64,000 nt of DNA. It comes from Candidatus Thorarchaeota archaeon (GTDB taxonomy: Archaea > Asgardarchaeota > Thorarchaeia > Thorarchaeales > Thorarchaeaceae). Shown here piece after piece: positions 16,483 through 62,408 of this stretch. Both the position numbers and the translations under genes were made by a program. The notes under the pieces are model-generated. The model was given only the letters and a program-made list of their open reading frames with translations. It searched no databases and was not told the DNA's origin. The stretch lies in the NCBI GenBank assembly GCA_003345545.1, contig PRDH01000081.1:1-64000 (forward strand), given 5' to 3'. Positions within the stretch are counted from its first letter, which is position 1; each line of letters opens with the position of its first letter.

Positions 16483-16590
16483 TGGAGCCCTTGGCGAGAT
16501 TTGTTCCACATTGAGTAAATCCCAACGTGCTTGAACTCGCGACTTCCTCCTTACCAAGGAGGCGATCTAACCGGTCTAAGCTACAAGGGC
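16483..16590 (-). tRNA. tRNA-Thr(GGT) with a 30-base T-loop intron
   Basis: Read on the minus strand from 16590. The acceptor GCCCTTG pairs with CAAGGGC, followed by discriminator T and an encoded CCA (16483-16485). The anticodon stem CCTCC/GGAGG encloses TTGGTAA, anticodon GGT. The T stem GCGAG/CTCGC is split by 30 bases (16501-16530) inserted between nucleotides 58 and 59 of the loop TTCAA|AT. The insert can fold on CACGTTG/CAATGTG. Removing it leaves a 75-base tRNA. The D stem GCTT/GATC has an unusual C11-U24 mismatch. A TATA-like CCTTTATC lies about 35 bases upstream. Confidence 0.9.
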
Positions 16591-30605: not shown

Positions 30606-30712
30606 GGGCCCGTGGCTTAGACTGGTTATAGCGCCGCTCTGATAAGGCGGATATCGCGCGTTCAAACAGATAGGGAATTTCCCCTCTGGAATTCATCGCG
30701 TCGGGCCCACCA
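30606..30712 (+). tRNA. tRNA-Ile(GAT) with a 29-base T-loop intron
   Basis: The acceptor GGGCCCG pairs with CGGGCCC, followed by A and an encoded CCA (30710-30712). The anticodon stem CCGCT/GGCGG encloses CTGATAA, anticodon GAT. The T stem GCGCG/CGCGT is interrupted by 29 bases (30666-30694) between nucleotides 58 and 59 of TTCAA|AT. The insert folds on CAGA/TCTG with an inner GGGAA/TTTCCC. Without it the tRNA is 75 bases. A TATA-like CTTTTTATC lies about 40 bases upstream. Confidence 0.9.
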
Positions 30713-53497: not shown

Positions 53498-53649
53498 TGG
53501 TGCCGAGAATGGGATTTTCGGATCAGATGCAAACCATCTAATCCTTCGAACCCATGAACCCCTACGAGAGTGGATTTCTCCTGGGAGTCAAGCCGGCAGC
53601 TTGAACGATCTTGAGCCCACCGCCTTTAACCGGGCTTGGCTATCTCGGC
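53498..53649 (-). tRNA. tRNA-Leu(CAA) with two introns (anticodon and T-loop)
   Basis: Read on the minus strand from 53649. The acceptor GCCGAGA pairs with TCTCGGC, then A and an encoded CCA (53498-53500). The anticodon stem GTGGG/TCCAC encloses CTCAAG|A (anticodon CAA) with a 34-base intron at 37/38 that folds on TCAAGC/GCTTGA. A long variable arm, as in leucine tRNAs, follows. The T stem ATGGG/CCCAT carries a 30-base intron (53516-53545) between nucleotides 58 and 59, folding as a 10-base stem GGATTAGATG/CATCTGATCC. Without introns it is 85 bases. Confidence 0.9.
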
Positions 53650-54487: not shown

Positions 54488-54610
54488 CGATTACCTGACC
54501 CCATCGAAAGCCCGCACCTCTGCCTGTCTGAAGCAAGGACAAACAAGAGGATGCGCCAGTCTGCTTTGACGTTCGGAATTACAGGTGAAGAATATCATTG
54601 CACTAGCCCA

Positions 54611-54696
54611 ATGAGAGTGGATGTCTCATCGGAGACAAGCCAGCAGCCTGAATGACCTTGAATCCACGGCCTTTAACCGGATTTGGCTACCTCGGC
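54611..54696 (-). pseudogene. 5' part of a second tRNA-Leu(CAA), lacking the T-arm and 3' acceptor
   Basis: On the minus strand from 54696: GCCGAGGTAGCCAAATCCGG, then the anticodon stem GTGGA/TCCAC with TTCAAG and the same type of 37/38 intron, ending in the variable-arm start TCTCATTGGG. It aligns along its length with the complete tRNA-Leu at 53498-53649, with scattered changes. No T-stem, T-loop or CCTCGGC 3' acceptor strand follows in the next 150 bases. It is either a truncated relic or, less likely, the 5' half of a split tRNA. Confidence 0.8.
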
Positions 54697-55289: not shown

Positions 55290-55312
55290 CTACGGTCTAA
55301 ACTCCGACGCTA

Positions 55313-55675: not shown

Positions 55676-56377
55676 CTACCTCTGCTTTGCATTATCATAT
55701 ACAACTCGGGTACCAATCTTTTCTCCACGAAAGGCTCGCGAGAAATTGCTTGCATCTGTCCCATCGAAAATGATCGTAGGTATCTTTGATCGCTCAACAA
55801 CCCTAATGGCGACCGGATCGAACAGCTTGTACTCTCCAGCTTTTGTACCTCCGGCTTCGAGTATCTTTCGCAACTTGTCAATGGTGACAGACTCCAGTTT
55901 TACAGCGCCCGTCTTCTTAGGATCTCTGTCATAGACCCCATCGACATTGGTTGCATTAAACAGAATCTCTGCTCGAACAGTTTCGGCTGCTACTGCTGCG
56001 ACTGCATTGGTGGACTGTGCTGGTATCAGGCCTCCCATTAATACAACCTTGTTCAAGTTGACAGCGACTTCAAGCTCATCAAGGGTTTCCACTATCGTCG
56101 GATACGCAATACTGCCAAGGGCTGCGCATAACAGCTCTGCATTGTCCCTAGCTAGTTTAATTCCAAGCCAGTCACACTGAGCCTCGGTTGCTCCGAGAGA
56201 CCGAGCTGCATCTATGAACGTTCGTGCTGGCTTGCCGCCACCGACCACGACAATAATGGAATGGCCCTCTTTCACCAAGGACTTGATGATATTGGCATAG
56301 TCCTTCACTCTATCGACGATTACACTGCCGTCTTTGTCATAGAGGAGAGACCCTCCAAGTTTCAACACTGCTCTCAT
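55676..56377 (-). CDS. pyrH: UMP kinase (archaeal type)
   Basis: 233 residues from the ATG at 56377 (MRAVLKLGGSLL); the ORF track's longer start adds an unlikely 31 residues. Amino-acid-kinase fold: the phosphate loop KLGGSLL, VVVGGGKPARTFIDAARSLGA, and NATNVDGVYDRDPKKTGAVKLE near residue 150 match archaeal PyrH. It phosphorylates UMP to UDP. Convergent biology with pyrB and dCMP deaminase elsewhere in the window. It is divergent from valS, with about 240 bases between starts. Confidence 0.93.
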   Translation of the reverse strand: MRAVLKLGGSLLYDKDGSVIVDRVKDYANIIKSLVKEGHSIIVVVGGGKPARTFIDAARSLGATEAQCDWLGIKLARDNAELLCAALGSIAYPTIVETLDELEVAVNLNKVVLMGGLIPAQSTNAVAAVAAETVRAEILFNATNVDGVYDRDPKKTGAVKLESVTIDKLRKILEAGGTKAGEYKLFDPVAIRVVERSKIPTIIFDGTDASNFSRAFRGEKIGTRVVYDNAKQR

Positions 56378-56614
56378 GGCAAGTCCTCTTGGTATGCCTT
56401 GTGGATAGTTTTCCTTCTGACCATTAAAGAAGCTTTCTTGAATGCACCAGTTCGCCGAATTTTCGAACACTACCAGTTTTCTCCCAGAATCCCTGTAATG
56501 TCATGCGGGCCACATAGGCAAATAGAACTGACCAAAGCCCTTTTAGGTGGAATAACCTCAGCGAGTCTAAGCGGCGAGAGCCGACCCTTGTTGACATCAA
56601 GGAGATTGATCCTT

Positions 56615-59086
56615 TTGTCGAACTTAGAACCCAAAATCAAGTCCAAACGGTGGACACCTGAATCAGAGGCTGAACTGCTGGAAACTTGGGCAAAGGAAGA
56701 TACATACGAGTTCAATATGGACTCAGGGAAGAAGATCTACACGGTTGATACTCCCCCTCCCTATCTCTCAGGCCCCATGCACGTAGGGCAGGTCACGCAC
56801 TATACACAGATTGACGCTATTGCACGCTACAGACGAATGCAGGGGTTCGAGGTCAATTTCCCACTTGGAATTGATCGTAATGGTCTACCGGTAGAGATTC
56901 GAGTCGAGAAGGATCTCGGTATTAGTATGCACAGGACACCCCGTGATGAGTTTCTCCACCTGTGCAAGAAACGTCTAGATGATGATGAAAAGATAGCTAT
57001 TCGTGCCTTCAAGAGACTTGGAATCGCCTTCAACACGTATGAGGATAGGGGCAGTTATCGTACCGATAGCCCACGATTCAGGGCTGTGACTCAGGCCACG
57101 TTCATTGAGATTTGGAACAAGGGACTCGTGTATTCTGATGTACGTCCAAACAACTGGTGCTTTGAGTGTGGTACAACTATCGCAGATGCTGAAGTGGAGT
57201 ACTCTGAGCGTCAGACTACCCTGAACTATCTACACTTTGAGGTAGAAGGACTTGATCCGATTGAGATTGCTACAACAAGACCTGAGCTACTCTGTGCATG
57301 TGGCGCAGTGTTTGTTCATCCTGATGATGCACGATATTCTGCTTATCATGGAAAGAAAGCCAGGGTTCCAATCTTCAACATTGAAGTACCCATAATAGCA
57401 AGCTCTGCTGCTCAGATGGAGTTTGCCACAGGAGCTCTAATGGTCTGTAGTTATGGTGATCAGGCTGATGTGATGGCTTTCAGAGATCATGCGCTTACTC
57501 CGATTGCTGCTGTTACACCTGAGGGTACAATGACTGAGGCTGCTGGGAAATATGCCGGCATGACGATGGCTGACGCTAGGAAAGCAATTCTGGCTGATCT
57601 CAAGAAGAAGAAACTGCTTATCCGACAGGAACAGACAATGCAGAGGATACCCCTATGCTGGCGTAGTGGTACACCCATTGAGTTCATTGCGATGAACGAG
57701 TATTACGTGAAACAGGTGGAGTTCGTCGAGGACCTGCTGAAGATCGCCAGAGAAATGACCTTCTACCCACCATTTCACAGGCAGATTCTCATTGATTGGC
57801 TCAACAGAGTCACTGTAGACTGGCCAGTCAGCAGACGCAGATACTATGGCACTGAAATCCCAATCTGGTACTGCAAGTCATGCGGAGCGGCTGTTCTTCC
57901 TGAGCTGACTGGAGAGCCTAAGTATTACCAACCATGGCGAGAGAATCCTCCCTTCTCTAAGTGTCCCAAGTGTGGTGTGGAAGAGGGATTCAGAGGAGAA
58001 GAACGCACCTTTGATACATGGATGGACTCGTCTACTACTGGCCTCCAAATCATAGGATTCATGCGTAATGAAAAGCTGTTCAAGAAAGCCTTTGGAAACG
58101 TACTTCGCCCACAGGGAAAGGACATTGTAAGGACTTGGCTCTATTACTCTCTTCTCCGGACTCTGCAGCTGACAGGGAAGCCTGCGTTTAAAGAAGCATG
58201 GATTTCCGGTCATGTAGTGGATGAAAACGGCGAAACAATGAGCAAGTCCAAAGGCAACTCACCACCTCCGATGCCATTCGTCGAGAAGTATGGTGCCGAT
58301 GCGATGCGTATGTTCGGAATTCTTGAGGCTGGACTCGGCAGCGATGTTCGTTTCTCCGAGGATCGCTTGGCTGGAGTATCGAAATTCATGACCAAGCTCT
58401 GGAATATCGCTCGTTTCATCTCGATGTTTCCAATACCCAAAGAGATGGGATTCAAGAAGCTCACTAGTGTGGATCAATGGATTCTTGCAGAACTGAACAA
58501 GGTCTTGGAGCGAATAGTGCCTGAATGTGATCTTCTTGACTTTCACAAGCCCGCAACAGAAGTCCGAGGATTCACTTGGAACTTCTTCGCGGACATTGTC
58601 ATGGAGATGATCAAGGGACGTGCACTCAATACGAACGGCACCTTTTCAGCAGATGAACAGAAATCTGCCTGGTCCACCTTACATGAGGTATTGAAGAAAG
58701 TGACTCGAGCACTGGCTCCAATTACTCCCTTCATCACTGATCGAATCTACAGAGAGCTCTATGATGAGAGAGGAGTTCACAGACAGAGCTATCCCTTAGT
58801 GCGTAAGGACTGGGAGTCAGATTTGACGGAACACACAGTGCTCTTGCTTCAGACAAACCAAGCACTCTGGAAATTCAAGCGTGAGAATGGGATTTCACTG
58901 AGACAGGGACTCCCTGAGGCCTATATCCCAGAGAATCTTAGACCTTGGTCAAAGGACCTTCAGGCAATGCATGGCATTGAGAGAATCAGCTTTGGACAGC
59001 CCAACGATGCCAAGTTTGTGGAAGTCAAGTTTCTTGAGGTGGAAGGTGCAATCTACATTCGTCCCCCGGCAGAGAATAAGACATGA
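56615..59086 (+). CDS. valS: Valyl-tRNA synthetase
   Basis: About 823 residues from a TTG at 56615; the ORF track's upstream ATG would run into pyrH's N-terminus. AAGGAG lies about 10 bases before it, and SNLEPKIKSKRWTPESE is a typical ValRS start. The HIGH motif reads HVGQ (PPPYLSGPMHVGQ), and the KMSKS loop reads MSKSKGN. FPLGIDRNGLPVEIRVEKDLGI, WPVSRRRYYGTEIPIWYCKSCG and the anticodon-binding region follow. HVGQ instead of HIGH is an unusual but conservative variant. IleRS is excluded by the family motifs, though the editing pocket was not analysed. Confidence 0.9.
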   Translation: MSNLEPKIKSKRWTPESEAELLETWAKEDTYEFNMDSGKKIYTVDTPPPYLSGPMHVGQVTHYTQIDAIARYRRMQGFEVNFPLGIDRNGLPVEIRVEKDLGISMHRTPRDEFLHLCKKRLDDDEKIAIRAFKRLGIAFNTYEDRGSYRTDSPRFRAVTQATFIEIWNKGLVYSDVRPNNWCFECGTTIADAEVEYSERQTTLNYLHFEVEGLDPIEIATTRPELLCACGAVFVHPDDARYSAYHGKKARVPIFNIEVPIIASSAAQMEFATGALMVCSYGDQADVMAFRDHALTPIAAVTPEGTMTEAAGKYAGMTMADARKAILADLKKKKLLIRQEQTMQRIPLCWRSGTPIEFIAMNEYYVKQVEFVEDLLKIAREMTFYPPFHRQILIDWLNRVTVDWPVSRRRYYGTEIPIWYCKSCGAAVLPELTGEPKYYQPWRENPPFSKCPKCGVEEGFRGEERTFDTWMDSSTTGLQIIGFMRNEKLFKKAFGNVLRPQGKDIVRTWLYYSLLRTLQLTGKPAFKEAWISGHVVDENGETMSKSKGNSPPPMPFVEKYGADAMRMFGILEAGLGSDVRFSEDRLAGVSKFMTKLWNIARFISMFPIPKEMGFKKLTSVDQWILAELNKVLERIVPECDLLDFHKPATEVRGFTWNFFADIVMEMIKGRALNTNGTFSADEQKSAWSTLHEVLKKVTRALAPITPFITDRIYRELYDERGVHRQSYPLVRKDWESDLTEHTVLLLQTNQALWKFKRENGISLRQGLPEAYIPENLRPWSKDLQAMHGIERISFGQPNDAKFVEVKFLEVEGAIYIRPPAENKT

Positions 59087-62301: not shown

Positions 62302-62408
62302 TGGTGGACCGGGCGAGATTTGAACTCGCGGCCTTCTGAAGTGTCGGCCTGTGGCTAACACCAGCAAGCTTGCGAATCAGACGATCTACCGGTCTGATCT
62401 ACCGGCCC
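62302..62408 (-). tRNA. tRNA-Ala(CGC) with an intron at 37/38
   Basis: Read on the minus strand from 62408. The acceptor GGGCCGG pairs with CCGGTCC and includes the alanine identity pair G3-U70; then A and an encoded CCA (62302-62304). The D stem GATC/GATC is intact. The anticodon stem TCTGA/TCAGA encloses TTCGCA|T, anticodon CGC, with a 30-base intron at the 37/38 site. The T-arm GCGAG-TTCAAAT-CTCGC is uninterrupted. Without the intron it is 74 bases. A TATA-like CTTTTAAG is about 30 bases upstream. Confidence 0.93.

Follow-up and report, generated by a model that had tools for sequence, protein, structure and literature searches.

Archaeal tRNA Introns outside the Anticodon Loop

Non-canonical bulge-helix-bulge (BHB) introns are known from the tRNA genes of Thermoproteales (Sugahara et al. 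2008, as summarised in PMC4090602 and PMC8450103), and the T-arm sites listed for archaea in PMC4090602 are 53/54, 56/57, and 59/60. Similar introns found in different tRNA species of Thermoproteales have been taken as evidence of copying, a process called intron transposition (Fujishima 2010, as related in PMC4033280); in Caldiarchaeum subterraneum, a mobile element has been proposed as the source of the intron gained by tRNA-Thr(GGU) (PMC3293823). Closer to the organism studied here, the main-text passages of Valentin-Alvarado et al. 2024 (PMC11291895) report that most tRNA genes of Atabeyarchaeia and Freyarchaeia are interrupted, often non-canonically. Published work, then, already covers tRNA introns at non-canonical sites, introns in the T-arm, the transposition of introns, and Asgard tRNAs rich in introns.

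We analysed a stretch of 64,000 nucleotides, hereafter the window (bases 1-64000 of contig C81), from a Thorarchaeia genome of 2.69 Mb in 82 contigs (92.9% complete, 5.4% contaminated). As in Thermoproteales, where, according to the summaries cited above, several introns per tRNA are possible, we found short hairpin introns away from position 37/38, including in the T-arm, along with an EndA endonuclease of predicted broad specificity; unlike what those summaries describe, the host belongs to Thorarchaeia, one and the same site (58/59) is interrupted in tRNAs for most amino acids, and intron length hardly departs from 29-30 nt. Atabeyarchaeia and Freyarchaeia are likewise Asgard archaea with non-canonical tRNA introns, but they belong to other Asgard classes, and the main-text passages of PMC11291895 name no T-loop family, UUC/GAA docking, or comparison between isotypes. 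The introns of Fujishima 2010, in the account of PMC4033280, come from a different phylum, whereas those described here are concentrated in the T-loop and have a conserved AYUUC pentaloop. Caldiarchaeum subterraneum offers a parallel in its T-arm introns, in their presence or absence among close strains, and in its loose tRNA fragments (PMC3293823). In the literature that we searched, mostly outside subscription journals and without supplements, we found no description of T-loop introns in Thorarchaeia; what is apparently new is a T-loop family in this group that docks on the invariant UUC at the recurrent site 58/59, with related introns across tRNAs and a conserved AYUUC loop.

Three tRNA Genes Interrupted at the Same Site

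The window contains four tRNA genes, all with an encoded CCA. The first, tRNA-Thr(GGU) (16487..16590, minus strand), is 104 nt long with its T-loop intron and 74 nt once spliced, and scores 90.8 bits with our covariance model; it is preceded by the TATA-like sequence CCTTTATC. Its intron (16501..16530, minus strand; 30 nt, GCACGTTGGGATTTACTCAATGTGGAACAA) lies at 58/59 and folds into a 9-bp hairpin with the pentaloop AUUUA, and its GAA (16504..16506, minus strand) pairs with the exon TTC at 54-56. The second gene, tRNA-Ile(GAU) (30606..30708, plus strand; 103 nt, 74 nt spliced, 87.8 bits), has the TATA-like TTTTTATCG upstream and a 29-nt intron at 58/59 (30666..30694, plus strand; ACAGATAGGGAATTTCCCCTCTGGAATTC), whose GAA at 30689..30691 (plus strand) pairs with the exon TTC at 30661-30663. 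The third, tRNA-Leu(CAA) (53502..53649, minus strand; 148 nt, 71.7 bits), also has a TATA-like sequence upstream and carries two introns: a canonical one of 34 nt at 37/38 in the anticodon loop (53576..53609, minus strand), where the syntenic tRNA-Leu(CAA) genes of relatives are likewise interrupted, and one of 30 nt in the T-loop at 58/59 (53516..53545, minus strand; AGGATTAGATGGTTTGCATCTGATCCGAAA). The latter combines a 10-bp hairpin, a UUC/GAA mini-helix, and two 3-nt bulges, and is, among the T-loop introns of the window, the closest to a canonical BHB. The fourth gene, tRNA-Ala(CGC) (62306..62408, minus strand), is interrupted by a 30-nt intron in the anticodon loop (about 62341-62370), whereas its T-loop is intact. 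At the other end of the window, 629-2995 encodes a pyruvate formate-lyase-type glycyl-radical enzyme, with the Pfam domains PFL-like and Gly_radical.

The original prediction had placed the three inserts between nucleotides 58 and 59, after TTCAA or TTCGA, each as a hairpin followed by a GAA able to pair with the TTC of the T-loop. The insert coordinates proved exact to the base, and the split holds in all three genes, 58/59 being the sole junction that fits them together (gene by gene, 56/57 or 57/58 would also be possible in Thr, 59/60 in Ile, and 57/58 or 59/60 in Leu). The predicted hairpins were borne out as well, with T-arm plus intron folding at −16.9 kcal/mol for Thr, −14.4 for Ile, and −21.5 for Leu; in each intron, a GAA close to the 3' end faces the TTC. 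Intron removal leaves a perfect cloverleaf in each case and, as anticipated, a 7-base T-loop, TTCAAAT in Thr and Ile and TTCGAAT in Leu; the same loops are present in intron-less genes of relatives with the same anticodon.

Such genes are easily overlooked by tools that take no account of these introns: ARAGORN, run with the bacterial code and mode, recovered none of the four, and Rfam recovered only tRNA-Ala. All four were found with a scanner that we wrote to recognise cloverleaves with inserts in the anticodon loop and the T-loop. One has to keep in mind that this scanner requires TTCRA and a paired T-stem, so that independent evidence is provided not by those two features but by the GAA, the hairpin, and the covariation; its anticodon calls are also unreliable for tRNAs with further introns (locus L130, called Glu, looks like Thr-GGU). 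The three genes with T-loop introns scored 22.0-22.5; the best score in 30 shuffled windows was 19, and chance can be excluded because none of these windows reached 21.5.

A covariance model built from eight T-loop-intron tRNAs was then run on the genome and its relatives. In the same genome, it revealed further T-loop introns in tRNA-Leu(CAG) (C44:96062-96175), tRNA-Pro(GGG) (C78:21515-21647), and tRNA-His(GUG) (C44:103051-103150). In tRNA-Thr(CGU) (C27:10210-10311), a 30-nt insert with a 9-bp hairpin and an AUUUC loop lies at about 53/54, not at 58/59.

A Relaxed BHB Fold and Its Predicted Processing Enzymes

The introns share a common design, namely the T-stem, a UUC/GAA mini-helix, and a hairpin, in two registers that differ in what follows the mini-helix: a 3-nt bulge, as in the Leu intron of the window, or a 5-nt bulge, as in Thr and Ile. 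In the 5-nt register (17 sequences), compensatory changes occur at all nine hairpin pairs, with a covariation score of 0.79 vs 0.23 when shuffled and at most 0.15 when partners are slid by 1-3 columns; in the 3-nt register (12 sequences), they occur at 10 of 10 pairs, again with 0.79 vs 0.23, and slid partners reach at most 0.17 overall. The UUC helix is paired in 100% of the 5-nt set, a figure to be read with care, as both sets were picked for their fit to the register and percentages of pairing are, thus, biased towards the structure; it is the compensatory changes that count as evidence. Of the 75 introns, 74 carry a complement of UUC (GAA, GAG, GGA, or GGG) at one or other of the two spacings observed, vs a mean of 8.6 and a maximum of 21 in shuffled sequences.

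With a 3-bp UUC/GAA central helix, a 3-nt 5' bulge, and a 3' bulge of 3 or 5 nt, the motif agrees with a relaxed BHB. The strict form has a 4-bp central helix and two 3-nt bulges; we class the motif as relaxed because its helix has 3 bp instead of the canonical 4 and because some half of its members have a 5-nt 3' bulge. In the 5-nt class, a fourth pair could form only if G53 were displaced from the T-stem. We also considered the apical UUC as a surrogate T-loop and dropped the idea, the loop sitting 9-10 bp beyond the junction.

Two genes of the EndA family (PF01974) are present in the genome, as in most relatives, and lie on separate contigs. The product of one, a 188-aa alpha subunit, matches EndA of Aeropyrum pernix (3p1z_B, E 1.5e-41); the Tyr/His/Lys triad and, in the Crenarchaea-specific loop (CSL), a lysine that aligns with Lys44 of A. 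pernix are conserved in all 25 aligned alpha subunits, that of this genome included. The second protein (212 aa) aligns as an EndA-like partner and lacks the histidine of the DHAPF site; catalytic and structural subunits are, thus, separate, as in a heteromeric EndA. In the (alpha-beta)2 enzyme of A. pernix (PDB 3p1z), the CSL lysine, which is required to cut relaxed motifs, has been reported to confer broad specificity (PMC6379350). By comparison with this enzyme, the host EndA is predicted to be of the broad-specificity, heteromeric CSL type. A gene for the RtcB ligase is also present.

We, thus, regard the inserts, with high confidence, as archaeal tRNA introns of the non-canonical kind, located at position 58/59 of the T-loop. 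The precursor would adopt a BHB-like structure made up of the T-stem, a 3-bp helix in which U54U55C56 of the exon pairs with the GAA of the intron, and the intron hairpin, with a 3-nt bulge on the 5' side and one of 3 or 5 nt on the 3' side. The heteromeric EndA, of the predicted broad-specificity type with the CSL lysine, would cleave inside both bulges, a role that we infer from homology, and RtcB would ligate the exons, giving back a normal 7-nt T-loop.

Two other explanations would make the inserts something else than introns. The genes could be pseudogenes, broken by insertions, with intact copies elsewhere doing the work, a condition that the original prediction had named as refuting it. 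Decay of tRNA copies does occur locally: about 1 kb upstream of tRNA-Leu(CAA) lies the truncated 5' relic of a second one (54606..54696, minus strand), which runs from the acceptor strand to the variable arm. This relic has no T-arm and is not a functional backup, and although the genome is incomplete, neither Rfam nor the covariance model found, in this 92.9%-complete assembly, a gene without interruption for tRNA-Ile(GAU), tRNA-Thr(GGU), or tRNA-Leu(CAA). The interrupted genes themselves have all stems paired, an encoded CCA, and TATA-like boxes, and same-site inserts in many isotypes, with a conserved UUC complement and covarying hairpins, are not expected of random insertion; we, therefore, find pseudogenes very improbable. 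Just as improbable, in our opinion, is that the inserts are not removed and lengthen the T-arm of the mature tRNA. One can conceive of tRNA arms extended by hairpins, but the UUC/GAA pairing would block the usual contact between D-loop and T-loop, the insert is exactly missing in closely related species, further inserts interrupt tRNA genes of the same genomes at 37/38 and in the variable region, and an EndA with the broad-specificity loop is encoded along with RtcB. Compensatory changes, exact intron-less orthologues, presence or absence in synteny, and these enzyme genes all point to introns, as originally predicted.

As for the tRNA-Leu locus, another possible tRNA-Leu remnant lies near 55300 of the window, and a similar fragment is found at 2998-3070 in the relative L032; local duplication and decay of tRNA-Leu seem to recur there.

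Distribution and Turnover in Thorarchaeia

Covariance-model matches of this length were obtained in many of 47 Thorarchaeia genomes, as well as in other families of the phylum. We retained 75 distinct tRNA genes with a T-loop insert (those of the present genome included), covering most amino acids; the insert is 30 nt long in 43 and 29 nt in 20, i.e., 29-30 nt in 63 of the 75. Six Thorarchaeia genomes of good quality (95-99% complete) carry 2-5 confirmed T-loop introns each, in differing isotypes; the site is, thus, re-used while the set of tRNAs changes. So many T-loop introns had been called unusual for the lineage; this part of the original prediction does not stand, given these counts, the other families of the phylum, the non-canonical Asgard introns in the published passages of PMC11291895, and the T-arm introns of Caldiarchaeum (PMC3293823).

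The T-loop is not the only site away from the anticodon loop. In several Thorarchaeia genomes, tRNAs for Thr, Ile, Asn, Lys, and Met (L252, L260, L263, L264, and L266) carry inserts of about 30 nt in their variable region, which makes it a second recurrent non-canonical insert site in this group. Within the anticodon loop, a GGGGTCA-like stretch is common to the inserts of L008/L107 (Trp), L229 and L247 (Met), and L230, L250, and L251 (Trp); these stretches are possibly box C/D-type guide elements within the introns.

The tRNA-Leu(CAA) gene lies beside that of leucyl-tRNA synthetase (LeuRS; 56261-59086, 82% identical to a Candidatus Thorarchaeota LeuRS), and this neighbourhood allows syntenic genes to be compared. 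Of the 35 related loci, most are likewise assigned to Candidatus Thorarchaeota. The T-loop intron is present in six of these loci, the window included, and missing in 13, and the six intron-bearing loci require six changes on the LeuRS tree. The three nearest LeuRS rows to the window (L032-L034) are without the intron; L032 and L034 keep the T-stem of the window with the loop TTCGAAT, so these intron-less orthologues match the predicted spliced sequence. Judging from such sequence comparisons, T-loop introns have been repeatedly gained or lost among relatives.

Possible Copying between tRNAs

We compared introns across amino acids, using as a control the reversed intron sequences, which retain composition and pairing. 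The best score between introns of different amino acids was 18, vs 7 for the control; 20 pairs scored at least 8, vs none, and 15 vs none once the loops were removed. Introns of different tRNAs are, thus, more alike than structure and composition require. A 31-nt pattern derived from the best-matching pair hit four sites in the 47 genomes, while the reversed control gave no hit. Three genomes of the genus of the window account for all four: the pattern lies there in the T-loops of tRNA-Ala(UGC), tRNA-Leu(CAG), and tRNA-Thr(CGU), and one of these genomes has it also in a decayed tRNA 3' end. This search found no two intact tRNAs of different isotype with near-identical introns within one genome. 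A looser DNA pattern for the intron family was set aside, as most of its seven matches were apparently not tRNAs and one more appeared in the reversed control. The apical loops tell a similar story: among 43 loops of five bases, 19 have the sequence AYUUC, across seven amino acids, vs 0.26% expected from composition. Similar loops (ACUUC, AUUUC, AAUUC) occur at other intron sites of the same genome, i.e., in Thr(CGU) at 53/54 and in the inserts of another three tRNA genes, including one for Trp. T-loop introns in different isotypes are, thus, likely to be related.

In genome G008, the intron of tRNA-Thr(CGU) is near-identical to that of a lone decayed tRNA 3' end with CCA (C86:24056-24086), possibly an attachment-site remnant or a tRNA fragment.

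How the introns came to be in so many tRNAs is a separate matter from whether they are introns, and here our confidence is lower. TTC is invariant in tRNAs, so almost every tRNA should permit the splicing of a hairpin that terminates in GAA, and we attribute to this portability both the re-use of the site in many tRNAs and the relatedness of introns in different isotypes. The account that we put forward, tentatively and as one falling just short of probable, is that of a small mobile T-loop intron family in Thorarchaeia, a hairpin of about 30 nt with an AYUUC pentaloop and a terminal GAA on the universal TTC, which would spread from tRNA to tRNA; the loop would mark either common descent or a factor-binding site. 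The likeness might instead come from structural demands alone, each intron having been gained independently at a favoured site. Many introns are indeed unlike in sequence (e.g., Leu and Thr in the window), mean similarity across isotypes is low, and GAA and hairpin are needed for splicing anyway; yet the excess over the reversed control, with or without loops, the confinement of the 31-nt pattern to four sites, three of them T-loops of different isotypes in one genus, and the frequency of AYUUC make independent gains unlikely in our eyes. The route itself may have been DNA recombination, or integrating elements bearing an intron-containing tRNA 3' end, as has been suggested for the tRNA-Thr of Caldiarchaeum (PMC3293823), and not reverse splicing of intron RNA; this we hold to be a real possibility, though on the whole somewhat doubtful. 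The tRNAs with the related introns, Ala(UGC), Leu(CAG), and Thr(CGU), have one T-stem in common (GCGAG/CTCGC), which leans towards recombination of the whole arm; the decayed 3' end with the same intron stands alone in G008, and the LeuRS sisters L041 and L042 differ in T-stem as well as in intron. Against this, the Leu gene of the window and those of L032, L034, and L035 share the T-stem ATGGG/CCCAT, and their T-arms differ by the intron alone.

Significance for Asgard tRNA Biology

Asgard tRNA sets may be under-counted, because intron-blind tools miss or truncate genes such as these. The intron-rich tRNA splicing of hyperthermophilic Thermoproteales and the matching type of enzyme would extend, as predicted from genes and genomes, to Thorarchaeia within the Asgard archaea. 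The re-use of one tRNA site would have a simple reason, the universal TTC providing half of the splice motif, and the many pairs of close relatives with and without an intron offer material for studying how introns are gained.
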